This document shows, piece by piece, positions 11,927 to 26,659 of a DNA stretch of 40,462 nucleotides (position 1 is the first letter of the stretch; each line of letters begins with the position of its first letter). A program made the translations under genes and the position numbers. The stretch is from Actinocrinis puniceicyclus (GTDB lineage Bacteria; Actinomycetota; Actinomycetes; Streptomycetales; Catenulisporaceae), in the NCBI RefSeq assembly GCF_018283645.1, contig NZ_JAGSXH010000052.1, positions 1 through 40,462 on the forward strand, read 5' to 3'. Under the pieces are notes generated by a model. The model saw only the letters and a list, made by a program, of their open reading frames with translations. It was not told where the DNA came from and ran no database searches.

Positions 11927-13030
11927 TCAGCTGAGCCGCCGGGCCAACGTCAGGGTCCGAATCCCCTTGCGGAACGCGGAGAGGGTGGCCGGATCGGCGT
12001 CGAAACCCCAGTCGGTGCCGGCTCCCTGCGTGTAGGTGTACTCGAACCATACGAAGCCGAGCACGTTCGGCTGCCTCGCCAGCCAGCCGAGGAAGTCGGC
12101 GGTCCAGGCCGCCTTGTTCGAACCCGGCTGACCGCCCAGCTCGGTGAGCAGCAGCGGCTTGGCGGTGAACGCGCGCAACTGCTTCAGCGTCGGGTCGAGC
12201 AGCTGAGCCGTCGTCCGCTCGGAGACCTCGTACGCGCTCAGGCCGATCCAGTCAACGTATCGGTCTCCCGGATAAAGCCGCTTCATCGGCGTGGTCGCGC
12301 TGCGTACGATGTTCGGCGACCAGACCCAGATCACGTTGAGCGCGCCCGCCTTCTGGAACAGGTCGTGGACGTGCCGCCACGCCTCGGCGTACTGCCCGGC
12401 CGTGTTGCCGTTGACCCCCTCGGACCACGGATACCAGTCGCCGTTCATCTCGTGCGCGAAGCGGATCGCCACCGGCCACTTGACGCCCTTGACCGAGGCG
12501 GCGAACCGGGTGATGTAGGCGTCGTGGGCGCCGTCGATGATGCTCTTGAGCGTGTAAGCGGGGGCGTGGGCCGAGGTGTGACGCGCAGTGCCGCCGGCGA
12601 ACGGCTGCCAGCTGAGCACCGGCAGCATGCCCTGCGCATAGGCGTTCACGATCGGCTGCGGATCGAAGTCCTTGGTCCAGTTGACGAAGTACTCCGCCAT
12701 GTTCGGGGAGACCCCCGCGCTCGTCGCGATCTTCGCGCGGGCCGCGGCTTGCCACGGCACGTTGGCCGCGGCGACGCCGAAGTACTTGCCCGAGCCCGCC
12801 ATGATCTGTGCTTTCGTGGGGATCACGACGCTCGCGGCGGTGGCCTTCGGCGACGCGGAACCGTTCGCCGACGTGGCGGGACGCGCCGACGGGCGCGTCC
12901 CGAAGGCGCCGAGGCCGTAGGCGAGTGCGGAGCCGACGGCAAGGCACGCGGCGAGCAGAATCACGGCCAACCGCATCCGTATGTGGATGCCCGTGTGGAT
13001 GCCCGGCGTCTTCCGTTCCCGCTGCGCCAC
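11927..13030 (-). CDS. Exported GH26 family glycoside hydrolase
   Basis: 367 residues from GTG 13030, with a GGGGGG run 6 bases upstream. A basic N-terminus and hydrophobic segment (about 19-43) act as signal or anchor, followed by a Ser/Ala linker and a GH26 barrel from about residue 70. Acid/base is Glu194 in FAHEMNGDWYPWSEG and nucleophile is Glu297 in PLLLTELGG. The sequence is a close paralogue of the GH26 protein coupled to the GT2 synthase (positions 4290-5429), including KYFGVAAANVPW against NYFGVMAADVPW. Both may therefore act on the same kind of beta-linked polymer. It is transcribed away from the ribosomal operon; a 16-bp palindrome lies 50 bp upstream of its start. Confidence 0.85.
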   Translation of the reverse strand: MAQRERKTPGIHTGIHIRMRLAVILLAACLAVGSALAYGLGAFGTRPSARPATSANGSASPKATAASVVIPTKAQIMAGSGKYFGVAAANVPWQAAARAKIATSAGVSPNMAEYFVNWTKDFDPQPIVNAYAQGMLPVLSWQPFAGGTARHTSAHAPAYTLKSIIDGAHDAYITRFAASVKGVKWPVAIRFAHEMNGDWYPWSEGVNGNTAGQYAEAWRHVHDLFQKAGALNVIWVWSPNIVRSATTPMKRLYPGDRYVDWIGLSAYEVSERTTAQLLDPTLKQLRAFTAKPLLLTELGGQPGSNKAAWTADFLGWLARQPNVLGFVWFEYTYTQGAGTDWGFDADPATLSAFRKGIRTLTLARRLS

Positions 13031-13079
13031 TGCGGCCCCCCCTAGCCTCTGGACTTGAGCTTGGACAGTCCGTGCAGAC

Positions 13080-13095
13080 TAGTCGAACTCGACTA
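13080..13095. promoter_or_regulatory. 16-bp palindrome upstream of the GH26 gene
   Basis: TAGTCGA-AC-TCGACTA: two perfect 7-bp arms around a 2-bp centre, 50 bp upstream of the GTG of the minus-strand GH26 gene. The size and symmetry suit a dimeric repressor or activator. No matching copy was noticed at the other GH26 genes. Confidence 0.4.
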
Positions 13096-13310
13096 CGTGT
13101 TCGTACTACAGACGTCTTCTTGACGGACATGTTGTAAGTGCGGCGAGGGCCTCGGGGGCCGGTGTGCGGCGGGACCGCGAGCCCGTCACAGCGGCGCTGT
13201 ATTCGAACATCGACCTCGATGCGCCGCCGATGCGCCCCCGTGGACGTGCACGTGTGACAGGAGCCGGCCGGGCGCTGGTCGTGCGGCGACCGGTCCCGGA
13301 CCGGCCCGAT

Positions 13311-13340
13311 TTGGCCCAGGGCGTGCGGCTCCGGCATACT
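13311..13340 (+). promoter_or_regulatory. Probable promoter of the S10 operon
   Basis: TTGGCC (13311-13316), 18 bp, CATACT (13335-13340), a fair match to the primary sigma factor consensus. Transcription would start near 13347, leaving a leader of about 290 nt before rpsJ. Confidence 0.45.
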
Positions 13341-13491
13341 GTTTCAGTTGCTCGGCGAGGGATGTTTCCTTCGTCGGGCGCCCGGAGTGAAGTACCAGCC
13401 ACTCGCGAAGTCTCGCCAGAAGGCGTGCCAGCTGCGCGGTGGACCTCCAGGGCCCGCGCTCATCAGCAATGGTGGCCGGCAGGGTTGTGCC

Positions 13492-13548
13492 CTGCTGCCG
13501 CGCACTCGTGTGCGGCAGCAGCGCGACACGCCCGACCGCGTGGGTCGG
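13492..13548 (+). promoter_or_regulatory. Two hairpins in the rpsJ leader
   Basis: The first stem is CTGCTGCCGC (13492-13501) with GCGGCAGCAG (13512-13521), 10 perfect base pairs and a 10-nt loop. The second is CCGACC (13532-13537) with GGTCGG (13543-13548), 6 bp and a 5-nt loop. No T-run follows either, so they look more like a structured leader than a terminator. In other bacteria S10 leaders bind L4 for autogenous control; whether that occurs here is not known. Confidence 0.45.
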
Positions 13549-13638
13549 AGAAAACCGGACAGACGGCTCCGAACAGAGGCAAACCCGCACCGCGGGGGCG
13601 CCGCAGCGGTTTTACGAGTAGAAGGAATTCGAGCAGCC

Positions 13639-13947
13639 ATGGCGGGACAGAAGATCCGCATCAGGCTCAAGGCCTACGACCACGAGGTCATCGACTCCTC
13701 GGCGCGCAAGATCGTCGAGACGGTGAGCCGCACTGGTGCGCAGGTCGCGGGCCCGGTGCCGCTGCCGACCGAGAAGAACGTGTACTGCGTCATCCGGTCG
13801 CCGCACAAGTACAAGGACTCGCGCGAGCACTTCGAGATGCGCACCCACAAGCGGCTCATCGACATCCTCGACCCGACCCCGAAGACCGTCGACTCGCTGA
13901 TGCGGCTCGACCTGCCGGCCGGCGTCGACATCGAGATCAAGCTCTAA
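13639..13947 (+). CDS. rpsJ: 30S ribosomal protein S10
   Basis: 102 residues, the normal length. The [15 protein letters not shown] start and the [20 protein letters not shown] segment are diagnostic. S10 sits in the 30S head and, in other bacteria, also binds NusB during antitermination. ATG 13639 is preceded by AAGGA (13622-13626) at rather long spacing; the frame is open upstream but that part has no S10 homology. First gene of the S10 operon, 14 bp before rplC. Confidence 0.97.
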
Positions 13948-13961
13948 GGAACCTGCCGATC

Positions 13962-14603
13962 ATGAGTAAGCAGATCAAGGGCCTCCTGGGCGAGAAGCTC
14001 GGCATGACGCAGGTCTGGGACGCGGACAACCGGGTCGTCCCGGTGACCGTCGTCAAGGCCGGTCCGTGCGTCGTGACCCAGGTGCGCAACACCGAGAACG
14101 ACGGATACAGCGCGGTGCAGATCGCCTTCGGCGAGATCGACCCGCGCAAGGTCAACAAGCCGCGCAAGGGCCACTTCGACAAGGCCGGCGTGACCCCGCG
14201 CCGCCACCTGGTCGAGATGCGCACCGACGACGCCGCCGAGTACTCCCTCGGGCAGGAGCTCACCACCGAGGTTTTCACGGTCGGTCAGCGCATCGACGTC
14301 GTGGGCACCTCCAAGGGCAAGGGCACCGCCGGTGTCATGAAGCGGCACAACTTCCGCGGTCTGGGCGCCGCCCACGGCACCCAGCGCAAGCACCGCTCGC
14401 CGGGTTCGATCGGCGCCTGTGCCACCCCGGGACGCGTGTTCAAGGGCGTGCGCATGGCCGGCCGCATGGGCAACGCGCGGGTGACCGTGCAGAACCTGAC
14501 CGTGCACGCCATCGACGCCGAGAAGGGCCTGCTGCTGATCAAGGGCGCCATTCCGGGCCCCACCGGCGGCGTCGTGCTCGTGAAGACGGCTGCTAAGGGC
14601 TGA
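13962..14603 (+). CDS. rplC: 50S ribosomal protein L3
   Basis: 213 residues, close to the usual 205-215. It has the L3 start [15 protein letters not shown] and the conserved central loop [19 protein letters not shown] with [17 protein letters not shown], the extension that reaches toward the peptidyl transferase centre. L3 binds 23S rRNA early in assembly. It lies 14 bp after rpsJ and 6 bp before rplD, inside the S10 operon. Confidence 0.97.
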
Positions 14604-14609
14604 TGAGAG

Positions 14610-15266
14610 ATGACCACTACTCTGACTGTCGATCTCCCGGCGGAGATCTTCGACGTACCGGCGAACGTGCCGCTGATCCACCAGGTCGTGGTGGCGCAGC
14701 TGGCCGCCGCGCGCCAGGGCACGCACAAGGTCAAGAACCGCGGCGAGGTCTCCGGCGGCGGTAGGAAGCCGTACCGGCAGAAGGGCACCGGCCGGGCCCG
14801 CCAGGGCTCCACCCGCGCACCGCAGTTCACCGGCGGTGGCGTGGTGCACGGCCCGGTGCCGCGCGACTACTCGCAGCGCACCCCGAAGAAGATGAAGGCG
14901 GCCGCGCTGCGCGGGGCCCTTTCCGACCGGGCGCGCCACGGCCGCGTACACGTCATCGACGCCTTCGACGTGGCCGAGAAGCCGCACACCAAGACCGCGC
15001 TGGCCGCCATCAAGGAACTGACCGACCGTAGGCACGTGCTGGTGGTGCTCGGCCGCGAGGAGAAGAACGCCTGGCTGTCCCTGCGCAACCTGCCCGAAGT
15101 GCACCTGCTGCGCGCCGACCAGCTCAACACGTACGACGTGATGGTCAGTGACGACGTGGTGTTCACCAAGGCCGGCTACGACGCGTTCGTGAACGGCCCG
15201 AAGAAGGCCGACACCGCGGCCGTCGACACCGACACGGCCGACGCCGCGGAAGGAGACGAGGCCTGA
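14610..15266 (+). CDS. rplD: 50S ribosomal protein L4
   Basis: 218 residues. The internal loop [23 protein letters not shown], which lines the peptide exit tunnel, is intact, as is the [20 protein letters not shown]-terminal part. An acidic tail of about 20 residues ([17 protein letters not shown]) goes beyond the E. coli protein. L4 represses the S10 operon by binding its leader in Enterobacteria; the structured rpsJ leader here may or may not be a target. The stop overlaps rplW by one base (TGATG). Confidence 0.97.
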
Positions 15267-15598
15267 TGCCCGAGTTCGACCGCTACAACGCCGCACGTGA
15301 CCTGCTGGTCCGGCCGGTGGTCTCGGAGAAGAGCTACGCGCTGCTCGACGAGAACAAGTACACGTTCATCGTGCACAAGGACGCCAACAAGACGCAGATC
15401 CGCCAAGCGGTCGAGCTGCTCTTCGACGTCGAGGTCACGGGCGTGAACACGATCAACCGCAAGGGCAAGCGCAAGCGCACCCGCGCCGGCTTCGGCAAGC
15501 GCCCCGACACCCGTCGCGCCATCGTCTCGGTCGATCCGAATCCGAGGGACGCGAGCAAGAAGAGCCGGATCGACATCTTCGGGGGCCCGGTCTCCTAA
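15266..15598 (+). CDS. rplW: 50S ribosomal protein L23
   Basis: 110 residues. It has the L23 pattern [35 protein letters not shown] and the basic loop [21 protein letters not shown]23 lies at the exit of the peptide tunnel, where trigger factor and the signal recognition particle dock. Its ATG overlaps the rplD stop by one base; a 42-bp spacer with GAGGAAT follows before rplB. Confidence 0.97.
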
Positions 15599-15640
15599 GG
15601 GGATCGGACACCGAGGACACGCAGAGGAATCTGAGAAGCC

Positions 15641-16477
15641 ATGGGCATCCGCAAGTACAAGCCGACGACCCCGGGTCGCCGCGGCGCCAGCGTTGCCGAC
15701 TTCGCCGAGATCACCCGGGACTTCCCCGAGAAGTCCCTGGTGCGCCCGCTGCACTCGAAGGGCGGACGTAACGCGCAGGGTCGCGTCACGGTCCGTCACC
15801 AGGGTGGCGGCCACAAGCGCGCTTACCGTGTCATCGACTTCCGTCGGGACGACAAGGACGGCGTGCCGGCGAAGGTCGCGCACATCGAGTACGACCCCAA
15901 CCGCACCGCGCGTATCGCGCTGCTGCACTACGCCGACGGCACCAAGCGCTACATCATCGCCCCGGCGCGGCTCAAGCAGGGCGACCGGGTAGAGGCCGGC
16001 CCCGACGCCGACATCAAGCCGGGCAACAACCTGCCGCTGCGCAACATCCCGACCGGTACGGTCATCCACGCCATCGAGCTGCGGCCCGGCGGCGGCGCGA
16101 AGATCGCCCGCTCGGCCGGAGCCAGCGTGCAGCTGGTCGCCAAGGACGGTCCCTACGCGCAGCTGCGCATGCCGTCCGGCGAGATCCGCAACGTCGACGC
16201 GCGCTGCCGCGCCACCGTCGGCGAGGTCGGCAACGCCGAACAGAGCAACATCAACTGGGGCAAGGCCGGCCGCATGCGGTGGAAGGGCAAGCGCCCGACC
16301 GTCCGCGGTGTCGCGATGAACCCGATCGACCACCCGCACGGCGGTGGCGAGGGCAAGACCTCCGGTGGTCGCCACCCGGTCTCGCCCTGGGGCAAGCAGG
16401 AGGGCCGCACCCGCATTCCGGGCAAGGCCAGTGACAAACTCATCGTCCGTCGTCGCAAGACGAACAAGAAGCGCTAG
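15641..16477 (+). CDS. rplB: 50S ribosomal protein L2
   Basis: 278 residues, standard length. The protein opens with [15 protein letters not shown], has the conserved [14 protein letters not shown] segment near the peptidyl transferase centre, whose His is important for activity in E. coli, and ends in a basic tail [10 protein letters not shown]2 is a primary 23S rRNA binder needed for subunit joining. It is followed after 12 bp (containing AGGAGG) by rpsS. Confidence 0.97.
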
Positions 16478-16489
16478 GAGGAGGTCGAG

Positions 16490-16771
16490 ATGCCGCGCAG
16501 TCTGAAGAAGGGCCCCTTCGTGGACGACCATCTGCAGAAGAAGGTGGACGCCCAGAACGAGAAGGGCTCGAAGAACGTCATCAAGACGTGGTCCCGGCGC
16601 TCCATGATCGTCCCGGACATGCTGGGCCACACGATCGCGGTGCACGACGGCCGCAAGCACGTCCCGGTGTTCGTCACCGAGTCGATGGTCGGTCACAAGC
16701 TGGGCGAGTTCGCCCCGACCCGCACGTTCAAGGGTCATGTGAAGGAAGACCGGAGGTCCCGCCGTGGCTGA
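16490..16771 (+). CDS. rpsS: 30S ribosomal protein S19
   Basis: 93 residues, typical. [14 protein letters not shown], the central [29 protein letters not shown], and [16 protein letters not shown] are all conserved S19 signatures. S19 forms a complex with S13 in the 30S head near the A-site tRNA. Its AGGAGG ribosome-binding site precedes ATG 16490; the last 8 bases overlap the rplV GTG start. Confidence 0.97.
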
Positions 16772-17165
16772 GAACAAGGCCAAGGACCTGCCCGAGAACC
16801 AGGCACTGGCCCAGGCCCGGCACGTGCCGATGACCCCGATGAAGGTGCGCCGGGTCGTCAACGAGGTGCGCGGGCTGCCGGTGGACCGGGCGCTGGACTA
16901 CCTGAAGTTCGCGCCGTGGGCCGCCGCCGAGCCGGTGTACAAGTGCGTCGCGTCGGCCGCTGCCAACGCGCGTCACAACAAGAGCCTGTTCGGCGACCTG
17001 TACATCGCCGCGGCTTACGTGGACGAGGGCCCGACGCTCAAGCGCTTCCAGCCGCGCGCCCAGGGCCGGGCCTTCCGCATCCGCAAGCGCAGCAGCCACA
17101 TCACTGTCGTGGTCGAGGAGTTCGTCCCGGCGAACGTCGGCGGCAAGAAGGGCAGGACCCGGTAA
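16764..17165 (+). CDS. rplV: 50S ribosomal protein L22
   Basis: 133 residues from GTG 16764, which lies inside the end of rpsS and is preceded by CGGAGG (16751-16756). It has the L22 fold signatures [20 protein letters not shown] and the extended beta-hairpin [20 protein letters not shown] that lines the exit tunnel; changes in this hairpin cause macrolide resistance in other bacteria. The N-terminus is about ten residues longer than that of E. coli. The stop overlaps rpsC by one base. Confidence 0.97.
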
Positions 17166-18043
17166 TGGGCCAGAAAGTCAACCCGCACGGGTTCCGCCTC
17201 GGAATCACCACGGACTTCAAGTCGCGGTGGTACGCCGACAAGCTGTACAAGGCGTACGTCAAGGAAGACGTCGCGATCCGCAAGCTGATGACCACCGGCA
17301 TGGAGCGCGCCGGGATCTCGAAGGTGGAGATCGAGCGCACCCGTGACCGCGTGCGCGTCGACATCCACACCGCCCGGCCGGGCATCGTCATCGGCCGCCG
17401 CGGCGCGGAGGCCGAGCGGATCCGCGGCGAGCTGGAGAAGCTGACCGGCAAGCAGGTGCAGCTGAACATCCTTGAGGTCAAGAACCCCGAGGTCGACGCG
17501 CAACTGGTCGCCCAGGGCGTCGCCGAGCAGCTCTCCAGCCGGGTGGCGTTCCGCCGCGCGATGCGCAAGGCGATCCAGTCGACCATGAAGGCCGGCGCCA
17601 AGGGCATCAAGGTGCAGGTCTCCGGCCGTCTCGGCGGCGCCGAGATGAGCCGGTCCGAGCAGTACCGCGAGGGCCGGGTCCCGCTGCACACACTGCGCGC
17701 GAACATCGACTACGGCTTCTACGAGGCCCGCACCACCTTCGGCCGCATCGGTGTGAAGGTGTGGATCTACAAGGGCGATGTCGCCAACCTGCGCGCGGCG
17801 CGCGAGGCCGAGGCCGCGGCGCAGCGCCAGGGCCGTCCGGCCGGCGGCCGCGACGAGCGGCGCGGCGGGGACCGTCCGCGCGGCGGGCGTCCCGGCGGCC
17901 GCGGCGAGCGTCCGGCCCGCGGCGGCGAGCGCCGTCCCGCCGAGGCCCCTGTCACCGCGGCGAGCGAGGCTCCGGCCGAGGCGCCCGCGGCAACCCACGC
18001 GGCTGAGCCGCAGGGTGTGGCACAGTCACCGAAGGAGGGCTGA
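17165..18043 (+). CDS. rpsC: 30S ribosomal protein S3 with an Arg/Gly-rich C-terminal tail
   Basis: 292 residues against 233 in E. coli. Residues 1-215 are ordinary S3: [14 protein letters not shown], a KH domain with GRRG (77-80), and the [18 protein letters not shown] segment at the mRNA entry tunnel. From about residue 220 an added tail carries repeated RGG/GGR units, then an Ala/Pro/Glu-rich end (about 260-292). Such tails occur on S3 of several actinobacteria, though the RGG density here is notable; it might bind RNA. The start overlaps the rplV stop by one base; rplP follows after 3 bp. Confidence 0.96.
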
Positions 18044-18046
18044 CCC

Positions 18047-18466
18047 ATGCTGATCCCGCGCAGGGTCAAGCACCGCAAGCAGCACCACCCGTCCCGCTCG
18101 GGCGCGTCCAAGGGCGGCAACGAGCTGGCGTTCGGCGAGTACGGCATCCAGGCTCTGACGCCGGCGTACGTGACGAACCGCCAGATCGAGTCCGCGCGTA
18201 TCGCGATCAACCGGCACATCCGCCGCGGTGGCAAGGTCTGGATCAACATCTACCCGGACCGTCCGCTGACCAAGAAGCCCGCCGAGACCCGGATGGGTTC
18301 GGGCAAGGGTTCCCCCGAATGGTGGGTGGCCAACGTGAAGCCGGGCCGCGTGCTGTTCGAGCTGTCCTTCCCGAACGAGAAGGTCGCTCGTGAGGCGCTG
18401 CTTCGCGCAACGCACAAGCTGCCGCTCAAGTGCCGCATCATCAAGCGCGAGGCAGGCGAGGTCTGA
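18047..18466 (+). CDS. rplP: 50S ribosomal protein L16
   Basis: 139 residues, typical. [15 protein letters not shown] and the loop [21 protein letters not shown] are conserved; this loop points into the A/P tRNA region, and its central Arg is hydroxylated by YcfD in E. coli. GAAGGAGGG (18031-18039) precedes the ATG. The stop overlaps the rpmC start by one base (TGATG). Confidence 0.97.
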
Positions 18467-18687
18467 TGGCGATCGGGACGAAGACGCACGAGCTGCGTGA
18501 GCTGACCGACGAGGCGCTCGCCGGCAAGCTGCGTGAGGCCAAGGAGGAGCTGTTCAACCTCCGCTTCCAGCAGGCCACCGGCCAGCTGGAGAACCACGGT
18601 CGGATGAAGGCCGTCAAGTCCGACATCGCGCGGATCTACACGATCCAGCGCGAGCGGGAGCTCGGTATCACGGACGGTGCCGAATGA
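18466..18687 (+). CDS. rpmC: 50S ribosomal protein L29
   Basis: 73 residues from ATG 18466; a longer frame from 18430 would overlap rplP and adds no homology. It has the two-helix hairpin [33 protein letters not shown] and the conserved [16 protein letters not shown]29 lies next to L23 at the tunnel exit. It overlaps rplP by one base and rpsQ by four (ATGA), which implies tight translational coupling. Confidence 0.96.
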
Positions 18688-18971
18688 GCGATGAGGTAAC
18701 CAACGTGGAGAGCGCCGACGAGCGCAACCGCCGCAAGGTCCGCGAGGGCCTGGTGGTGAGCGACAAGATGGACAAGACCGTCGTCGTGGCGGTCGAGGAC
18801 CGCGTCAAGCACGCGCTGTACGGCAAGGTCATGCGCCGTACCAGCAAGCTGAAGGCGCACGACGAGCAGAACGCCTGCGGTATCGGCGACCGGGTCCTGC
18901 TGATGGAGACCCGGCCGATGTCCGCGACCAAGCGCTGGCGCGTGGTCGAGATCCTCGAGAAGGCGAAGTAG
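18684..18971 (+). CDS. rpsQ: 30S ribosomal protein S17
   Basis: 95 residues. The OB-fold signatures [19 protein letters not shown] and the [39 protein letters not shown] region are clear; an N-terminal extension of about 18 polar residues is longer than in E. coli. S17 is a primary binder of the 16S 5' domain. It closes the S10 gene group; a 106-bp spacer with hairpins precedes rplN. Confidence 0.97.
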
Positions 18972-19001
18972 TACAACCCGCACGCTCTTAACCGAGCACA
19001 G

Positions 19002-19051
19002 CCTCTGCGAAGAGGATGGACCGCCACCCCGCGCCGGGCGACCGGCCGGGG
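19002..19051 (+). promoter_or_regulatory. Two GCGA-tetraloop hairpins before rplN
   Basis: Hairpin 1: CCTCT (19002-19006), loop GCGA, AGAGG (19011-19015). Hairpin 2: CCCCG (19027-19031), bulged C, GCCGG (19033-19037), loop GCGA (19038-19041), CCGGC (19042-19046), CGGGG (19047-19051). Both loops are the same GNRA tetraloop. The rplN ribosome-binding site AGGAG and GTG follow within 30 nt. It may be a protein-binding or stabilising leader of the spc genes. Confidence 0.45.
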
Positions 19052-19077
19052 AGGCAGATCTCATTCAGGAGTAGAAC

Positions 19078-19446
19078 GTGATTCAGCAGGAATCGCGGCT
19101 GCGGGTCGCCGACAACACCGGTGCTAAGGAAATCCTCTGCATTCGGGTTCTCGGTGGATCCAGCCGCCGCTATGCCGGGATCGGCGACGTCATCGTCGCC
19201 ACGGTCAAGGACGCGCTGCCCGGCGCCGGCGTGAAGAAGGGCGACGTCGTCAAGGCGGTCGTCGTGCGCACCGTCAAGGAGCGCCGCCGGCCGGACGGCT
19301 CGTACATCCGTTTCGACGAGAACGCGGCCGTCCTGATCAAGGACGGCGGCGACCCGCGCGGCACCCGCATCTTCGGCCCGGTGGGCCGCGAGCTGCGTGA
19401 CAAGCGGTACATGCGCATCATCTCGTTGGCCCCGGAGGTGCTGTAG
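19078..19446 (+). CDS. rplN: 50S ribosomal protein L14
   Basis: 122 residues, the invariant L14 length. [32 protein letters not shown] and [26 protein letters not shown] are conserved. L14 contacts L19 and 16S helix 14 at the subunit interface. The start is GTG 19078 with AGGAG about 6 bases upstream. First gene of the spc part, 2 bp before rplX. Confidence 0.97.
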
Positions 19447-19448
19447 CC

Positions 19449-19820
19449 ATGGCGCACAAGATGAACATCCACAAGGGCGACCTGGTCCAGGTCATCACCG
19501 GCAAGGACAAGGGTCTTCAGGGCAAGGTCGTGCAGGCCTTCCCGGAGACCCAGAAGGTCATCGTCGAGGGTGTCAACCGGGTCAAGAAGCACGAGAAGGT
19601 CGGCCAGACCGCCCGCGGCGCCAAGACCGGCGGCATCGTGACCGTCGAGGCGCCGATCCACGTCAGCAACGTGATGCTGGTCGTGGAGCACGAGGGCAAG
19701 AAGGTCGTCACCCGGGTCGGCTACCGGCGCACGCAGCAGGAGCGCCGCCTGCCCGACGGCACCACGAAGACGGTCACGCGGTCCGTTCGGTACTCGAAGA
19801 AGACCGGTGAGGACATCTGA
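19449..19820 (+). CDS. rplX: 50S ribosomal protein L24
   Basis: 123 residues, about 20 longer than E. coli L24, mostly in the C-terminal half. The KOW motif is [19 protein letters not shown] and [10 protein letters not shown] follows. L24 starts 50S assembly by binding the 23S 5' region. It lies 2 bp after rplN; the stop overlaps the rplE ATG by one base. Confidence 0.97.
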
Positions 19821-20395
19821 TGACCGCTGTCGACGAGACGTCTGCCAAGGTCGCGCCCCGGCTCAAGGAGCGCTACCGCGCCGAGATCATCGGCGAGCTG
19901 CGCAAGCAGTTCGGCTACGCGAACATCATGCAGGTGCCCGGCGTCACCAAGGTGGTCGTGAACATGGGCGTCGGCGACGCCGCCCGCGACTCCAAGCTGA
20001 TCGAGGGCGCGGTGCGCGACCTGACCGCGATCACCGGTCAGAAGCCGGCGATCACCAAGGCCCGCAAGTCCATCGCGCAGTTCAAGCTGCGCGAGGGCCA
20101 GCCGATCGGCACGCACGTGACCCTGCGCGGCGACCGGATGTGGGAGTTCCTGGACCGGCTGGTGTCCATCGCGCTGCCCCGTATCCGCGACTTCCGCGGC
20201 CTGTCGCCGAAGCAGTTCGACGGGAACGGGAACTACACGTTCGGCCTGAACGAGCAGTCGATGTTCCACGAGATCGACCAGGACCGCATCGACCGGGTCC
20301 GCGGCATGGACATCACCGTGGTCACCACAGCCAAGACCGACGACGAGGGCCGCGCGCTGCTCAAGCTGCTCGGCTTCCCCTTCAAGGAGGCGTGA
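19820..20395 (+). CDS. rplE: 50S ribosomal protein L5
   Basis: 191 residues, slightly longer than the usual 179 because of an N-terminal extension of about ten residues. [38 protein letters not shown] and the [10 protein letters not shown] segment are diagnostic. L5 binds 5S rRNA and forms bridge B1b with S13. It overlaps rplX by one base and is followed 2 bp later by rpsZ, whose ribosome-binding site AAGGAGG (20384-20390) lies inside rplE. Confidence 0.97.
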
Positions 20396-20397
20396 TC

Positions 20398-20583
20398 ATG
20401 GCGAAGACCGCTCTGATCAACAAGGCCAACCGCAAGCCGAAGTTCAAGGTGCGCGGCTACACCCGGTGCCAGAAGTGCGGCCGCCCGCACTCGGTCTACC
20501 GCAAGTTCGGGCTCTGCCGCATCTGCCTGCGGACCATGGCGCACGCCGGCGAACTGCCCGGCGTGACCAAGTCCAGCTGGTAG
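20398..20583 (+). CDS. rpsZ: 30S ribosomal protein S14 type Z (zinc-binding)
   Basis: 61 residues, the short C+ form. Cys24, Cys27, Cys40 and Cys43 form the zinc site (CQKC and CRIC). Actinobacteria often carry a second, zinc-free S14 elsewhere that is made under zinc starvation. S14 sits in the 30S head. The stop is followed by 361 bp of structured non-coding sequence before rpsH, which is unusual inside the spc operon. Confidence 0.97.
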
Positions 20584-20944
20584 AGCGGCGAGTCAACCCG
20601 CGAAGACGAGCCTGGTGACTGGTCGGGACCATCCGTCCCGACCGGTTACCATGGAACGAAAGACGTGGGCGCGGCGCCGGCCGTAAGTGTGTCAGTCACA
20701 CCGGTCGGCGCCTCGCCACGATGGGCGCTCTAGCGAAAGCGAGTCCGTCGGTACTCCCCCCGCCCTGACCGGCGCCGGGGAAAGGCCGACTGCTGGTTAC
20801 CCCAACCAGGCGCCTTGCACTGTCACTACGACGCCGTAGGTCCCCTCGGCGAATCCAAGGCACCTGGTCGCTGTGTTTTCAGCGCCGCGTGCCCGGCGAC
20901 GCGCCTGAGGCGGAAACCGCGGTGGGAAGGCCGAAGGCCCACCT
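20584..20944 (+). promoter_or_regulatory. 361-nt structured leader between rpsZ and rpsH
   Basis: No gene is supported here; an 11-codon frame at 20651-20686 lacks a ribosome-binding site. Stems seen: (a) GGTCGGGAC (20621-20629) with GTCCCGACC (20635-20643), 9 bp. (b) GGCGCCGGCCG (20673-20683) with CGGTCGGCGCC (20702-20712), topped by GTGTG/CACAC (20687-20691, 20697-20701). (c) ACCAGG-C-GCCTTG (20805-20817) with CAAGGC-A-CCTGGT (20856-20868), enclosing CTACG/CGTAG (20826-20830, 20835-20839). (d) GGTGGG (20921-20926) with CCCACC (20938-20943), which encloses the rpsH Shine-Dalgarno region and ends one base before its ATG. The last could block translation. S8 autoregulates the spc operon in E. 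coli; a similar role here is inference. Confidence 0.55.
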
Positions 20945-21343
20945 ATGACCATGACCGACCCGATCGCAGACATGCTCACCCGTCTGCGCAACGGCAACGC
21001 GGCGTACCACGACACGGTCTCCATGCCGTACTCCAAGCTCAAGGCCCGGATCGCCGAGATCCTCCAGCAGGAGGGCTACATCGCCTCCTACAAGGCCGAG
21101 GAGCTGCAGGTCGGCAAGAACCTGATCATCACGCTGAAGTACGGCCCGAACCGCGAGCGGTCGATCGCCGGCATCAAGCGCATTTCCAAGCCTGGTCTGC
21201 GTGTCTACGCGAAGTCCACCGGCCTGCCGAGGGTGCTCGGCGGCCTGGGTATCGCCATCATCTCCTCGTCCTCCGGTCTGCTCACGGACCGTCAGGCCGC
21301 CAAGAAGGGCGTGGGCGGGGAAGTCCTCGCCTACGTCTGGTAA
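20945..21343 (+). CDS. rpsH: 30S ribosomal protein S8
   Basis: 132 residues, standard. [78 protein letters not shown] holds the conserved rRNA-binding C-terminal domain (STGL and the [10 protein letters not shown] region). S8 binds 16S helix 21 and controls spc mRNA in E. coli. The start lies one base after a short stem that includes the likely ribosome-binding site GGGAAGG (20924-20930). rplF follows after 21 bp. Confidence 0.97.
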
Positions 21344-21364
21344 TCCGGAAGGGAGGCAACAGCC

Positions 21365-21904
21365 ATGTCACGTATCGGACGGCTGCCCATCCCGGTTCCG
21401 GCCGGCGTTGAGGTCAGCATCAGCGGGCGCGAGATCACGGTGAAGGGCCCCAAGGGCACCCTGAGCCACACCATCGTCGCCCCGATCGAGGTCGAGAAGG
21501 CACAGGACGGCACCCTGCAGGTGACCCGTCCCAACGACGAGCGCGCAGCCAAGGAGCGGCACGGCCTGACCCGTACGCTCGTCAACAACATGATCGTCGG
21601 AGTGACCGCGGGATACTCCAAGACCCTGGAGATCTCCGGAGTCGGCTACCGCGTGCAGGCCAAGGGCTCGGACCTGGAGTTCGCGCTCGGCTACTCGCAC
21701 CCGATCACGATCACCGCCCCGGAGGGCATCAGCTTCCGGGTGGAGGCCCCGACCCGCTTCGTGGTCTCGGGCATCGACAAGCAGAAGGTCGGCGAAGTCG
21801 CGGCGAACATTCGCAAGCTGCGCAAGCCGGATCCGTACAAGGCCAAGGGCGTGCGGTACCAGGGCGAGGTCATCCGCCGCAAGGTCGGAAAGGCCGGTAA
21901 GTAG
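21365..21904 (+). CDS. rplF: 50S ribosomal protein L6
   Basis: 179 residues, typical. The protein begins [17 protein letters not shown] and has [24 protein letters not shown] and the conserved end [28 protein letters not shown]6 binds 23S domain VI near the sarcin-ricin loop. GGAAGGGAGG (21347-21356) gives a strong ribosome-binding site. rplR starts 2 bp after its stop. Confidence 0.97.
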
Positions 21905-21906
21905 CC

Positions 21907-22290
21907 ATGCCGTACAGCGTGAAGATCGCCAAGGGCGACGCGAAGAAGGCCGTGGCGCGCAAGCGCCGCCACCTGCGCGTGCGCAAGCGGGTCAACGGCA
22001 CCGCGGAGCGTCCGCGTCTGGTCGTGACCCGGTCCAACCGGCACATCGTGGCGCAGGTCGTCAACGACAAGCTCGGCCACACGCTCGCGTCCGCCTCCAC
22101 CCTGGAGAGCTCGCTGCGCACCGCCGACGGCACCAAGTCGGACCTGTCCCGTGAGGTCGGCAAGCTGGTGGGGGAGCGGGCCAAGGCGGCCGGCGTCTCC
22201 ACGGTCGTCTTCGACCGGGCCGGCTACAAGTACCACGGGCGGATCGCCGCGGTCGCCGACGGCGCCCGCGAGGCGGGGCTGGAGTTCTGA
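21907..22290 (+). CDS. rplR: 50S ribosomal protein L18
   Basis: 127 residues. The [34 protein letters not shown] region and the C-terminal [28 protein letters not shown] are conserved. L18 binds 5S rRNA together with L5. The N-terminus is about ten residues longer than in E. coli. A 55-bp spacer follows before rpsE. Confidence 0.97.
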
Positions 22291-22345
22291 TGTACCACAC
22301 CCAGAGCAGTGAATCGACACAGTGCAGTGAAATGAGGGATTCCTG

Positions 22346-22975
22346 ATGCCTCCCCAGCAGCGTCGCGGAGGCGGCGCCGGTGGCGGCCGCGGTGGCGAGG
22401 GTGGCGAGCGTCGGGAACGCCGCGACCGTCGCAACCAGGATGCCGCGCCCGCAGCCGAGAAGACCGCGTACGTCGAGCGGGTCGTGACCATCAACCGGGT
22501 CGCCAAGGTCGTCAAGGGCGGCCGGCGGTTCAGCTTCACCGCCCTGGTCGTCGTCGGAGACGGCGACGGCACGGTCGGTGTGGGCTACGGCAAGGCCAAG
22601 GAGGTGCCCGCGGCGATCGCCAAGGGCGTCGAGGAGGCCAAGAAGCACTTCTTCAAGGTGCCGCGGATCCAGGGCACCGTTCCGCACCCGATCATCGGCG
22701 AGGACGCGGCCGGCGTGGTGCTGCTCAAGCCCGCATCGGCCGGTACCGGCGTCATCGCCGGCGGCCCGGTTCGCGCGGTGCTCGAATGCGCCGGCGTGCA
22801 CGACGTGCTGTCCAAGTCGCTCGGCTCGGACAACCCGATCAACATCGTGCACGCCACGGTGGCCGCGCTCAAGGGCCTGGTGCGGCCCGAGGAGATCGCC
22901 GCCCGCCGGGGCCTGCCGCTGGAGGACGTGGCTCCGGCCGCGCTGCTGCGCGCCCGCGCGGGAGTGGGGTCGTGA
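22346..22975 (+). CDS. rpsE: 30S ribosomal protein S5 with a Gly/Arg-rich N-terminus
   Basis: 209 residues against 167 in E. coli. The S5 core begins near residue 41 ([30 protein letters not shown]) and includes [12 protein letters not shown] and the helix [15 protein letters not shown]. The first 40 residues are rich in Arg and Gly ([16 protein letters not shown], then ERRERRDRR). S5 takes part in decoding fidelity and mRNA unwinding at the entry site. It lies close to S3, whose tail here is also Arg/Gly-rich. The start is taken at ATG 22346, after GAGGG; rpmD follows after one base. Confidence 0.96.
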
Positions 22976-22976
22976 C

Positions 22977-23162
22977 ATGGCGAAGCTGAAGGTCACGCAG
23001 GTCCGCTCGAAGATCGGCACGAAGCAGAACCACCGCGAGACGCTGCGGTCGCTCGGCCTCAAGCGGATCAACCACTCGGTGATCAAGGAGGACCGCCCGG
23101 AGATCCGCGGCATGGTCCACACCGTCCGCCACCTCGTCGTGGTTGAGGAGGTCGAGGACTGA
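22977..23162 (+). CDS. rpmD: 50S ribosomal protein L30
   Basis: 61 residues, typical bacterial length. [28 protein letters not shown] and [16 protein letters not shown] are the L30 signature. Its ATG is one base after the rpsE stop and its own stop overlaps the rplO start by one base (TGATG), so the three genes are translationally coupled. Confidence 0.97.
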
Positions 23163-23644
23163 TGTCCGAAGAGAAGCAGTCCACGGGCGCGCGCCCGTCG
23201 AAGCACGTGCTCAAGGTCCACCACCTGCGGCCCGCCCCGGGCGCCAAGACCGCCAAGACCCGGGTCGGCCGCGGTGAGGGCTCGAAGGGTAAGACCGCGG
23301 GCCGCGGTACCAAGGGCACCAAGGCGCGTTACCAGGTTCCCGACCGCTTCGAGGGCGGCCAGATGCCGCTGCACATGCGGCTGCCGAAGCTCAAGGGCTT
23401 CAAGAACCGGTTCCGCGTCGAGTACCAGGTGGTCAACCTGGCCAAGCTCGCCGAGCTGTACCCGCAGGGCGGGGAGGTCACCAAGGACGACCTGGTCGCC
23501 AAGGGCGCGGTGCGCAAGAACGAACTGGTCAAGGTGCTCGGCACCGGGGATATCTCGGTGGCGCTGAACGTCAAGGTGGACGCCTACTCGGCCTCCGCCA
23601 AGGAGAAGATCACCGCCGCCGGAGGCTCCGTCGAGGAGCTGTAG
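23162..23644 (+). CDS. rplO: 50S ribosomal protein L15
   Basis: 160 residues. The N-terminal arm [36 protein letters not shown] and the [22 protein letters not shown] segment are diagnostic. L15 is a late 50S assembly protein. It ends the spc ribosomal-protein run; a strong hairpin terminator follows 6 bp later, separating it from secY, which is often co-transcribed in other bacteria. Confidence 0.97.
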
Positions 23645-23650
23645 CAGCGT

Positions 23651-23689
23651 TCGAAGGCCCGTCTCCGTATGCCGGAGGCGGGCCTTCGA
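23651..23689 (+). terminator. Hairpin terminator after rplO
   Basis: Stem TCGAAGGCCCG-T-CTCCG (23651-23667) with CGGAG-G-CGGGCCTTCGA (23673-23689): 16 base pairs around one internal T/G position (possible G-U), loop TATGC. No T-run follows, so it is of the U-less kind common in actinobacteria. It would end or reduce transcription of the spc genes before secY. Confidence 0.7.
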
Positions 23690-23725
23690 GCCTCCCGAGT
23701 ATCGCTTTGCCGCGCCCTCTTTGCG

Positions 23726-23731
23726 TAAGAT
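23726..23731 (+). promoter_or_regulatory. Possible -10 of a secY promoter
   Basis: TAAGAT lies 110 bp before the secY start and 36 bp after the rplO terminator, where a new promoter is expected. No good -35 is seen at the usual distance (TTGCCG at 23707-23712 is only 13 bp away). Confidence 0.3.
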
Positions 23732-23840
23732 GGCGCGAGCCGAGCGTTGCCCGGCTGTTCAGTCTTGTCTCTGAACAGACCCAACCGTCACACGAACCGT
23801 CGGGCGCCGCACGGCCCGGCGGGGTAGCGCAGGAGGAACT

Positions 23841-25169
23841 GTGCTCACTGCCTTTGCCCGGGCCTTCCGCACGCCGGACCTGCGCAACAAGCTGCTCTTC
23901 ACGCTCGGAGTCATGTTCCTGTTCCGAATGGGGTCGCACATCCCCGTTCCGGGCGTGGACAGCGCCACGATCCGTTCCTGTGTCTCCGGCGCCGGGTCGA
24001 GCAGCGGCCTGGGCCTGATCAACCTGTTCTCCGGTGGCGCGCTGCTGCAACTTTCAGTGTTCGCGCTCGGCATCATGCCGTACATCACCGCGTCGATCAT
24101 CCTGCAGCTGCTGACCGTGGTGATCCCGCGGCTGGACACCCTCAAGAAGGAGGGGCAGGCCGGCCAGGCGAAGATCACCCAGTACACGCGGTACCTGACC
24201 ATCGGCCTGGCGATCCTCCAGTCGACCGGTCTGATCGCGACCGCGAAGTACGGCCCGCAGAACCTGATCAACGGCTGCACGCAGCAGATCATCTACCCGA
24301 ACGTGGACACCAAGGCCATGGTGATCATGGTCGCCGTGATGGTGTCCGGCACCTCGATCATCATGTGGCTCGGCGAGCTGATCACTGACCGCGGCGTCGG
24401 CAACGGCATGTCCCTGCTGATCTTCACCTCGATCGCCTCGGGCTTCCCGGGCTCGCTGTGGGGCATCAAGGAGACTTCCAAGCTCGGCGGCGGCTGGGTG
24501 GTCTTCCTCGGCATCATCGCGATGGGCATGGTGCTGGTCGGCTTCGTGGTGTTCATCGAGCAGGGCCAGCGGCGCATCCCGGTGCAGTACGCCAAGAAGC
24601 AGGTCGGCCGGCGCATGTACGGCGGCTCCTCGACCTACATCCCGATCAAGGTGAACCAGGCCGGCGTCATCCCGGTCATCTTCGCCTCGTCGCTGCTGCA
24701 ACTGCCGGTGCTGGTCGCGCAGTTCGCCGACCCCAACGGCAAGCACCACTGGTCGGTGTGGCTGCGCAACGAGCTGGGAATGACGAACAACGGCTACTCG
24801 CTGTACTACTCGGTGGCCTACTTCCTGCTGATCCTGTTCTTCGCCTTCTTCTACGTCGCGATCACGTTTAACCCGGACGAGGTTGCGGACAATATGAAGA
24901 AGTACGGCGGCTTCATCCCGGGCATCCGCGCGGGCAAGCCGACCGCCGAATACCTGAACTACATCCTGAGCCGGATCACCTGGCCCGGTGCCCTCTACCT
25001 GGCGCTGATCTCGATCATCCCGATGATCGCACTGGCCGAGTTCCACACAGGCGGCAAGTTCCCCTTCGGCGGTACCTCGATTCTGATCATCGTGGGCGTC
25101 GGCCTGGAGACGGTCAAGCAGATCGAGAGCCAGTTGCAGCAGCACAACTACGAAGGGTTCCTGCGCTAG
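23841..25169 (+). CDS. secY: Protein translocase subunit SecY
   Basis: 442 residues with about ten membrane helices. The first helix (about 18-36) is followed by the plug region after GSHIPVPGVD; IMPYITASIILQLL and the long cytoplasmic loop QGQRRIPVQYAKKQVGRR (with conserved Arg needed for SecA and ribosome docking) are present, as is FNPDEVADNMKKYGGFIPGIRAG. SecY forms the protein-conducting channel with SecE and SecG. The GTG start is preceded by AGGAGGA (23831-23837). adk begins at the base right after its stop. Confidence 0.97.
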   Translation: MLTAFARAFRTPDLRNKLLFTLGVMFLFRMGSHIPVPGVDSATIRSCVSGAGSSSGLGLINLFSGGALLQLSVFALGIMPYITASIILQLLTVVIPRLDTLKKEGQAGQAKITQYTRYLTIGLAILQSTGLIATAKYGPQNLINGCTQQIIYPNVDTKAMVIMVAVMVSGTSIIMWLGELITDRGVGNGMSLLIFTSIASGFPGSLWGIKETSKLGGGWVVFLGIIAMGMVLVGFVVFIEQGQRRIPVQYAKKQVGRRMYGGSSTYIPIKVNQAGVIPVIFASSLLQLPVLVAQFADPNGKHHWSVWLRNELGMTNNGYSLYYSVAYFLLILFFAFFYVAITFNPDEVADNMKKYGGFIPGIRAGKPTAEYLNYILSRITWPGALYLALISIIPMIALAEFHTGGKFPFGGTSILIIVGVGLETVKQIESQLQQHNYEGFLR

Positions 25170-25820
25170 ATGCGTATCGTGCTGGTCGGTCCCCCAGGTG
25201 CGGGAAAGGGGACCCAGGCCAAGATCATCGCCGGGCGGCTGGCCATCCCGGCGATCTCGACCGGGGACATCTTCCGCGCCAACGTCGGGGCAGGCACGCC
25301 GCTGGGCCTGGAGGCCAAGGGCTACATGGACCGCGGTGCGCTGGTCCCGGACTCCATCACGATCAGCATGGTGCGCAACCGCCTGGCCGAGCCGGACGTC
25401 ACCGGCGGCTTCCTGCTCGACGGCTTCCCGCGCAACGTGGCGCAGGCCGAGGAGCTTGAGGCGATCCTGATCGCGCTGGGCGCGAAGCTGGACGTGGTGC
25501 TGGAACTCGTCGTGGACAACGACGAGGTGGTCAAGCGGATCGCCGGGCGCCGGCTGTGCCGCAACGACTCGACGCACATCTTCCACACGGACTTCAACCC
25601 GCCGAGCGTGCCGGGCGTGTGTGACGTGTGCGGCGGCGAGTTGTACCAGCGCGACGACGACAAAGAGGAGACGGTCCGCGAGCGGCTGGACGTGTACGTC
25701 CGGGAGACGGCGCCGATCGTCGGCTTCTACGCGGAGCGTGGCCTGCTCGCCAGCATCGACGCCATGGGCGCCCTGGACCAGATCACCGAGCGGGCGCTGG
25801 CCGTCCTCAGTGACCGTTGA
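25170..25820 (+). CDS. adk: Adenylate kinase, long form with zinc-type lid
   Basis: 216 residues. It converts ATP + AMP to 2 ADP in the cytoplasm. The P-loop is GPPGAGKGT (Lys13), the AMP-site segments STGDIFR and LLDGFPRN are intact, and the lid (about 126-162) has Cys130, His136, Cys151 and Cys154, a zinc-binding arrangement of Cys plus His/Asp rather than four Cys. It starts directly at the secY stop and has no spacer, so it depends on secY translation. Confidence 0.97.
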   Translation: MRIVLVGPPGAGKGTQAKIIAGRLAIPAISTGDIFRANVGAGTPLGLEAKGYMDRGALVPDSITISMVRNRLAEPDVTGGFLLDGFPRNVAQAEELEAILIALGAKLDVVLELVVDNDEVVKRIAGRRLCRNDSTHIFHTDFNPPSVPGVCDVCGGELYQRDDDKEETVRERLDVYVRETAPIVGFYAERGLLASIDAMGALDQITERALAVLSDR

Positions 25821-25843
25821 GCCGCGTACCGAAAATCGCACCC

Positions 25844-26659
25844 ATGGTTGAGCTGAAGACCGAAGAACAGTTCGCGCTGATGCGTGAGGCCGGGCTGGTG
25901 GTCGCCCGCACGCTGGAACTGCTGCGCGGCGAGGTCAAGGACGGGGTCACGACGGCGCGGCTGGACGCGCTGGCCGAGGACTCGATCCGCTCGCAGGGCG
26001 CCGTACCCTCGTTCAAGGGCTACGGTGGCGGGCACGGCGCGCCGGCGTTCCCCGGGGTGATCTGCGCCTCGATCAATCACGAGATCGTGCACGGCATCCC
26101 CGGCGACCAGGTGGTGCGTGACGGCGACATCGTCTCGATCGACTGCGGCGCGATCTACCAGGGCTGGCACGGTGACGCGGCGATCACGGTGGCCTGCGGC
26201 GGGATCGACCCGGCGCTGGCCGAGTTGATGCGCGTCACCGAGGAGTCGATGTGGCAGGGCATCGCCGCGATCAAGGACGGCGACCGGCTCAACAACATCG
26301 GCCGTGCGATCCAGTCCTACGTGCGCAAGCAGGGCTTGTACGGCATCGTCGAGGGCTACGGCGGGCATGGCATCGGCTCGCAGATGCACATGGACCCGCT
26401 GGTCTTCAACCACCGCACCATGGATCGCGGTCCGCGGATGCAGGTCGGCATGGCGTTGGCGATCGAGCCGATGCTGACGCTCGGCCACAAGCAGACCGTG
26501 GAACTCGACGACGGCTGGACCGTGGTGACCAGGGACGGATCGAGCGCCGCGCATTTCGAGCACACGGTCGCGCTCACCGCGCAGGGCCTGTGGGTGACCA
26601 CGGCCTTCGACGGGGGCAAGGAACGGCTGGCCGCGCTCGGCGTGCCCGCGCATCCCTGA
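25844..26659 (+). CDS. map: Type I methionine aminopeptidase
   Basis: 271 residues from ATG 25844. It removes the initiator Met from nascent proteins. The two-metal site is complete: Asp100, Asp111, His175 (GYGGHGIG), Glu208 (AIEPM) and Glu239 (HFEHTV); His83 is the conserved substrate-binding His. The start is uncertain: a TTG at 25817 overlaps the adk stop (TTGA) and would add nine residues, but the family usually begins near VELKTEEQF and neither site has a clear ribosome-binding site. Adk and Map follow secY in most actinobacteria. Confidence 0.95.
   Translation: MVELKTEEQFALMREAGLVVARTLELLRGEVKDGVTTARLDALAEDSIRSQGAVPSFKGYGGGHGAPAFPGVICASINHEIVHGIPGDQVVRDGDIVSIDCGAIYQGWHGDAAITVACGGIDPALAELMRVTEESMWQGIAAIKDGDRLNNIGRAIQSYVRKQGLYGIVEGYGGHGIGSQMHMDPLVFNHRTMDRGPRMQVGMALAIEPMLTLGHKQTVELDDGWTVVTRDGSSAAHFEHTVALTAQGLWVTTAFDGGKERLAALGVPAHP

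Follow-up and report, generated by a model that had tools for sequence, protein, structure and literature searches.

The spacer between rpsQ and rplN in the analyzed stretch of DNA (40,462 nt, below referred to as the window) contains a conserved stretch with a probable function. This function is likelier to depend on a fold that surrounds the rplN ribosome binding site than on the twin GCGA tetraloops by which the stretch had first been noticed. Our preferred reading, held tentatively and with slightly less than even confidence, is that the spacer carries a lineage-specific cis-acting RNA element that would control how rplN is translated and, through coupling, the downstream spc genes as well, in this genus and its sister genus. 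What is claimed as probable is a structure enclosing the ribosome binding site, against which a local hairpin competes, rather than an established switch. The stronger new result is a candidate pseudoknot before rplN in other actinobacteria.

The window contains an actinobacterial S10-spc ribosomal-protein cluster. According to the list of open reading frames, the last base of the rpsQ stop codon is position 18971 and the GTG start codon of rplN lies at 19078, leaving a gap of 106 nt; the Shine-Dalgarno sequence (SD) CAGGAG precedes this GTG. The presumed controlled gene is rplN (uL14; 19078..19446, plus strand), assigned by its open reading frame, tblastn and comparison with relatives, and it lies directly 3' of the element, in the position expected for a ribosomal-protein leader. 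The largest gap seen among the spc genes read is another one, the 361 nt between rpsN and rpsH (20584-20944).

The two adjacent GCGA-capped stems reported for this spacer in the preliminary description are real. Hairpin 1 (CCTCT-GCGA-AGAGG, 19002-19015, plus strand), identified from the sequence, is a candidate open conformation. The twin of this CCUCU-type stem (GCCGG-GCGA-CCGGC, 19033-19046, plus strand, loop GCGA at 19038-19041) is the tip of an inner hairpin, resting on CCCCG/CGGGG and GCC/GGC in a longer interrupted stem. The plus strand of the window has six GNRA hairpins with at least five Watson-Crick pairs, and these two form the only pair on that strand with the same loop at a distance of up to 60 nt. 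Such a pair is beyond chance expectation, being observed in none of 200 shuffled windows and none of 5000 shuffled spacers. Both hairpins are present in the fold of 18940-19090, which is only mildly stable for its composition (z-score -1.85). Folding also yields a small hairpin further upstream (GCUC-UUAACC-GAGC, 18984..18997, plus strand), with a longer hairpin at the same place in the sister genus.

Conservation was studied in two sets of loci. Among 60 related genomes, 58 had an rplN match; 50 of their spacers were read and eight others were left out. The sample of named genomes comprised 77 of 80 loci, some of them from non-actinobacteria by record title, as L065, L096 and L124 gave no rpsQ match in tblastn. 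The window and three genomes of the sister genus (L004-L006) have TCTGCGAAGAG and TCAGGAGTAGAAC in identical form. Outside these two blocks the window spacer barely aligns with the same genomes, and the third codon positions of rplN are 0.80-0.85 identical. We infer that selection acts on the two blocks.

The identity of the two tetraloops, in which the preliminary description had seen a protein-binding or tertiary-contact element, is not shared by the relatives: the second hairpin is predicted in all three sister genomes, with the loops GACC, GAGC and CAA. The whole inner hairpin (19023..19055, plus strand) keeps its stem there in a different sequence with non-GNRA loops, and we take the second GCGA loop of the window as incidental. 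The alignment of rpsQ-rplN spacers, suggested earlier as a check, speaks for only a part of the initial idea, and the twin tetraloops do not pass it. Besides the conserved blocks, it shows that hairpin 1 can be formed in all four spacers with one paired change (136 of 500 column shuffles are as good), while the second loop is never GNRA outside the window. The second stem is predicted in the relatives from the sister genus; hairpin 1 has a predicted probability of 0.04 or less in the three sister genomes, and among the twelve spacers read from the family the other eight (genus g3) differ in structure, keeping the pseudoknot.

The four spacers, folded up to the start codon, share one minimum free energy (MFE) architecture, and RNAalifold selects it too. 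It consists of a helix P1, an internal loop, a helix P2 and the variable inner hairpin (all coordinates are on the plus strand). The strands of P1 in the window are UCUGC (19004..19008) and GUAGA (19071..19075), the latter occupying the interval between the SD and the start; the full helix is UUCUGC/GUAGAA, and in the window it has five pairs, the outer pair being a C-A mismatch. The predicted strands of P2 are GGAUG (19014..19018) and CAUUC (19062..19066), corresponding to GAC and GUC in the sister genus, with one paired change from C-G to A-U. The strand GAAGA (19009..19013), identical in all four spacers, faces the SD across the internal loop, as both individual folds and RNAalifold suggest. 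The SD itself (AGGAG, 19067..19071), assigned by position and sequence, has AGGA in the internal loop and its last G in P1.

The z-scores of the spacers folded to the start codon are -3.27 in the window, -6.08 in L004, -3.72 in L005 and -4.89 in L006. The nine pairs of P1 and P2 are 97.2% paired in the four rows, compared with 22.2-50.0% after sliding by one to three columns. Covariation in P1 and P2 is restricted to the one paired change in P2, in four rows of which three come from one genus, and 120 of 500 column shuffles are as good. Shuffling the window spacer creates a five-base complement to GUAGA in 8.7% of cases; for the six-base one of L004-L006 the figure is 0.6-1.7%.

In the window, when the fold extends up to the start codon, the long-range helix takes the place of hairpin 1 in the MFE structure, whereas the centroid retains hairpin 1; in the ensemble with 18 coding bases, the probability of hairpin 1 is about 0.66 versus about 0.31 for the long-range helix. 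The probability of P1 is 0.93 in L004 and 0.80 in L005; in L006 with coding bases it drops to 0.12, since the arm then pairs within the rplN coding sequence. Given the low probability of hairpin 1 in the sister genomes, the conservation of the 5' arm is explained at least as well by its pairing beside the SD. Within the SD, AGGA is for the most part unpaired in the predictions (probabilities of 0.56-0.89 for the window and 0.84-0.99 for L004 and L005); base pairing alone thus does not hide the SD, which would have to be occluded by the helices on either side or by a ligand. In the proposed mechanism P1 and P2, either alone or ligand-bound, would hinder ribosome loading, while hairpin 1, built on the same 5' arm as P1, would be the competing open form, and the ligand would most simply be a ribosomal protein of the operon. 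The element is perhaps two-state.

The same hairpins could instead be two independent local structures between the S10 and spc segments, acting in mRNA stability, processing or insulation between rplN and rpsQ translation, with no switch involved. This is rather unlikely. This reading agrees with the fold of 18940-19090 and with the window centroid, each of which contains both hairpins, as well as with the prevalence of hairpin 1 in the window ensemble and its one paired change. However, hairpin 1 is nearly absent from the predicted ensembles of the three sister genomes, and the strictly kept arms together with GTAGAAC exceed the needs of a simple hairpin.

Conservation of sequence beyond what pairing requires is also consistent with the blocks being a site for a sequence-reading protein, on RNA or DNA, the folds then being by-products of G+C-rich sequence. 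In line with this, the M. tuberculosis rplN promoter region is bound by the regulator ResR/McdR (PMC10336103), but the ResR consensus given there is unlike the conserved block, and a scan of 12000-26000 for sigma-70-like promoters detected none. Moreover, the 12-mer YTCTGCGAAGAG has a single occurrence in the genome itself, at the rplN spacer, which makes cis action likelier than a regulon. In other genomes it occurs twice in G001, four times in G003 and twice in G005 (the reversed control, five in all); the only place seen to recur is the one at rplN, the five other matches being unplaced. A protein site of this kind is unlikely.

Several searches produced matches elsewhere. The pattern of the core with the downstream hairpin was found in 34 of 245 genomes of the order, where the match G005:C11:22294 is the known spacer and the others are unplaced. 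Model R1, applied to the class with strict filters, matched 55 of 118 genomes at E up to 1, the sister genomes not being among the matches listed; among 15 loci taken from this search, only the one from the genome itself (L144) held rpsQ or rplN, the other matches being unplaced. A second spacer match in the same genome (G000:C11, E 7.5e-4) falls into an adenylation-domain-like gene and was taken as chance. The pattern TTCTGCGAAGAG-gap-CAGGAG, which cannot match the window since the latter reads CTCTGC, was found in one of 394 genomes of the class and rejected, as inspection of the translated flanks by eye revealed neither rpsQ nor rplN.

In other actinobacteria the rpsQ-rplN spacer often bears a different structure whose distance to rplN is fixed, and this supports the preferred reading by site. 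The motif GUUC-b-A(A/G)GC-variable hairpin-GAAC-C-b' is present in 85 of 127 spacers read: 43 of the 50 spacers from related genomes and 42 of the 77 named ones (42 of 58, if only named spacers of at least 30 nt are considered). The distance from GAAC to the rplN start in these spacers is 21-26 nt. The motif was found in L008-L034, L036-L048, L050-L052 and 42 named loci within L063-L142 (examples are L101:1452-1500, L082:1451-1500 and L123:1446-1500), and two further loci, L007 (E 5.3e-11) and L081 (E 5.9e-5), were recovered with model R2. By record titles, the bearers include Streptomyces, Micromonospora, Plantactinospora, Actinomadura, Microbispora, Nocardioides, Arthrobacter, Rothia, Brevibacterium, Schaalia and Amycolatopsis, as well as a Bifidobacterium MAG and an Acidimicrobiales MAG; of the Nanopelagicales MAGs one bears the motif and L116 does not. 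A phylum search with R2 under strict filters gave matches at E up to 0.01 in at least 12 of 198 genomes, seven of them, from the same order, directly adjoining rplN and the other five unplaced.

The pairing of b with b', together with GUUC:GAAC, would form an H-type pseudoknot, and paired changes support this model. The two middle pairs of b:b' hold in all 85 spacers, one end pair in 74 and the other in only 18, these counts being partly limited because the selection pattern allows only C/T, A/G and A/G at the three positions that follow GAAC. The same pattern fixes GUUC, A(A/G)GC(T/A) and GAAC, so the invariance of GUUC:GAAC carries no weight. The middle pairs are mostly G-C and C-G, with A-U, C-G, G-U and U-A as replacements, and the forms of b/b' include CGCC/GGCG, CACC/GGUG, CCCC/GGGG and CGUC/GACG. 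In the alignment A3, which consists of 43 of the 85 motif rows, thinned by hand mainly in Streptomyces, the whole structure has 67 double-change cells (eight in b:b', the remainder in the variable hairpin), compared with a mean of 20.3 in shuffles that ignore kinship, none of 500 shuffles being as high; slid controls gave 10-27 such cells.

Spacers of this region show other features as well. Streptomyces-like spacers (L022, L045, L046) have an extra hairpin just 3' of rpsQ, often CCU...AGG, upstream of the motif. Another common hairpin with the core GGTCGGAAATC(T/C), located 29-68 nt before rplN, is seen in four of the 77 named loci (L091, L094, L118, L134; Prescottella, Rhodococcus, Actinoalloteichus and Saccharothrix). 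The spacers of Modestobacter, Klenkia and Blastococcus (L063, L070 and L117; 202, 202 and 237 nt, respectively) lack the pseudoknot motif and contain G+C-rich repeats of their own, resembling each other.

Since g3, a genus of the same family, keeps the pseudoknot, the latter was probably lost on the branch leading to the window, and the window spacer, which still contains GCC...GGC, could be its functionless decayed remnant. We consider this very unlikely: R2, comprising GUUC/GAAC, the unpaired AGGC and b:b', has no match in the window spacer (L003) and only partial hairpin matches in L004-L006 (E 2.4-5.1), and two genera share the conserved new core. A role of the spacer as intrinsic terminator or attenuator ending the S10 segment is highly improbable. 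The strong hairpin shortly 3' of rpsQ would suit it, but no U tract follows either stem and the terminator scan of 12000-26000 lists none in the spacer.

The element of the preferred reading resembles the uS8 operator of the E. coli spc operon in being a (here predicted) RNA structure in spc mRNA over an initiation region, where in E. coli an operon protein represses translation. The uS8 operator, however, belongs to the third gene, rplE, at whose start it is found, and imitates the 16S rRNA site bound by uS8 (PMC10931766), whereas the window element precedes rplN and neither model matched rRNA. The rpsO (uS15) leader of mycobacteria and E. coli, a ribosomal-protein 5' UTR in which a hairpin competes with a pseudoknot at the site of ribosome binding (PMC8470358), is similar in outline to the alternative folds predicted before rplN. 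It differs in gene and ligand, and the window element is a nested stem rather than a pseudoknot; the topology of the rpsO leader recurs in the model of the widespread rplN motif, though for another gene. With the latter motif the window element shares the spacer and the vicinity of the rplN start, and probably the purpose, while differing in sequence and topology. Like the candidates of PMC7247131, it would be a lineage-specific structured leader before a ribosomal-protein gene; that study has 20 candidate ribosomal leaders, and its main text, as far as covered here, does not mention rplN.

In the 16S and 23S rRNA of the genome itself, G003 and G014 no convincing counterpart was found for R1 or R2. 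Within 16S, R1 gave nothing better than E 1.7 and the motif scan was negative; its best match in rRNA loci (E 0.044) covers only unpaired model positions in flanking DNA outside the rRNA gene and was rejected, and the best match of R2 has E 2.1. As obvious rRNA likeness is typically missing in ribosomal leaders (PMC2864571), its absence here decides nothing. The Arthrobacter form of the motif (L109, L113, L114, L120) contains CCGCAAGGCU, identical to the 16S stretch GGCCGCAAGGCUAAAACUC (L169-L171); this may be chance, and no weight is placed on it, since the pairing partner of b is b'. Rfam 15 has no match at the gathering threshold in the window and, in nine related loci, none with an E value of 1 or below, and no report of either element was found in the literature covered (largely open-access, supplements aside). 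The pseudoknot, the fold of this lineage and the other hairpin all appear to be uncatalogued.

A broader reading, which is possible though doubtful, is that translation of the spc genes is controlled at the rpsQ-rplN junction across much of Actinomycetota, and that different RNA operators have replaced one another there. The ancestral one would be the H-type pseudoknot with its unpaired AGGC and the b:b' helix near the SD; here it would have given way to a two-state switch, open as the GCGA hairpin and closed as P1/P2, and some Mycobacteriales and Pseudonocardiales would use another hairpin. The fold in the window and the covariation-supported pseudoknot provide directly testable operators for the longest ribosomal-protein operon. 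If true, two different structures occupying the same site in a single family would reveal the speed at which such operators are swapped.
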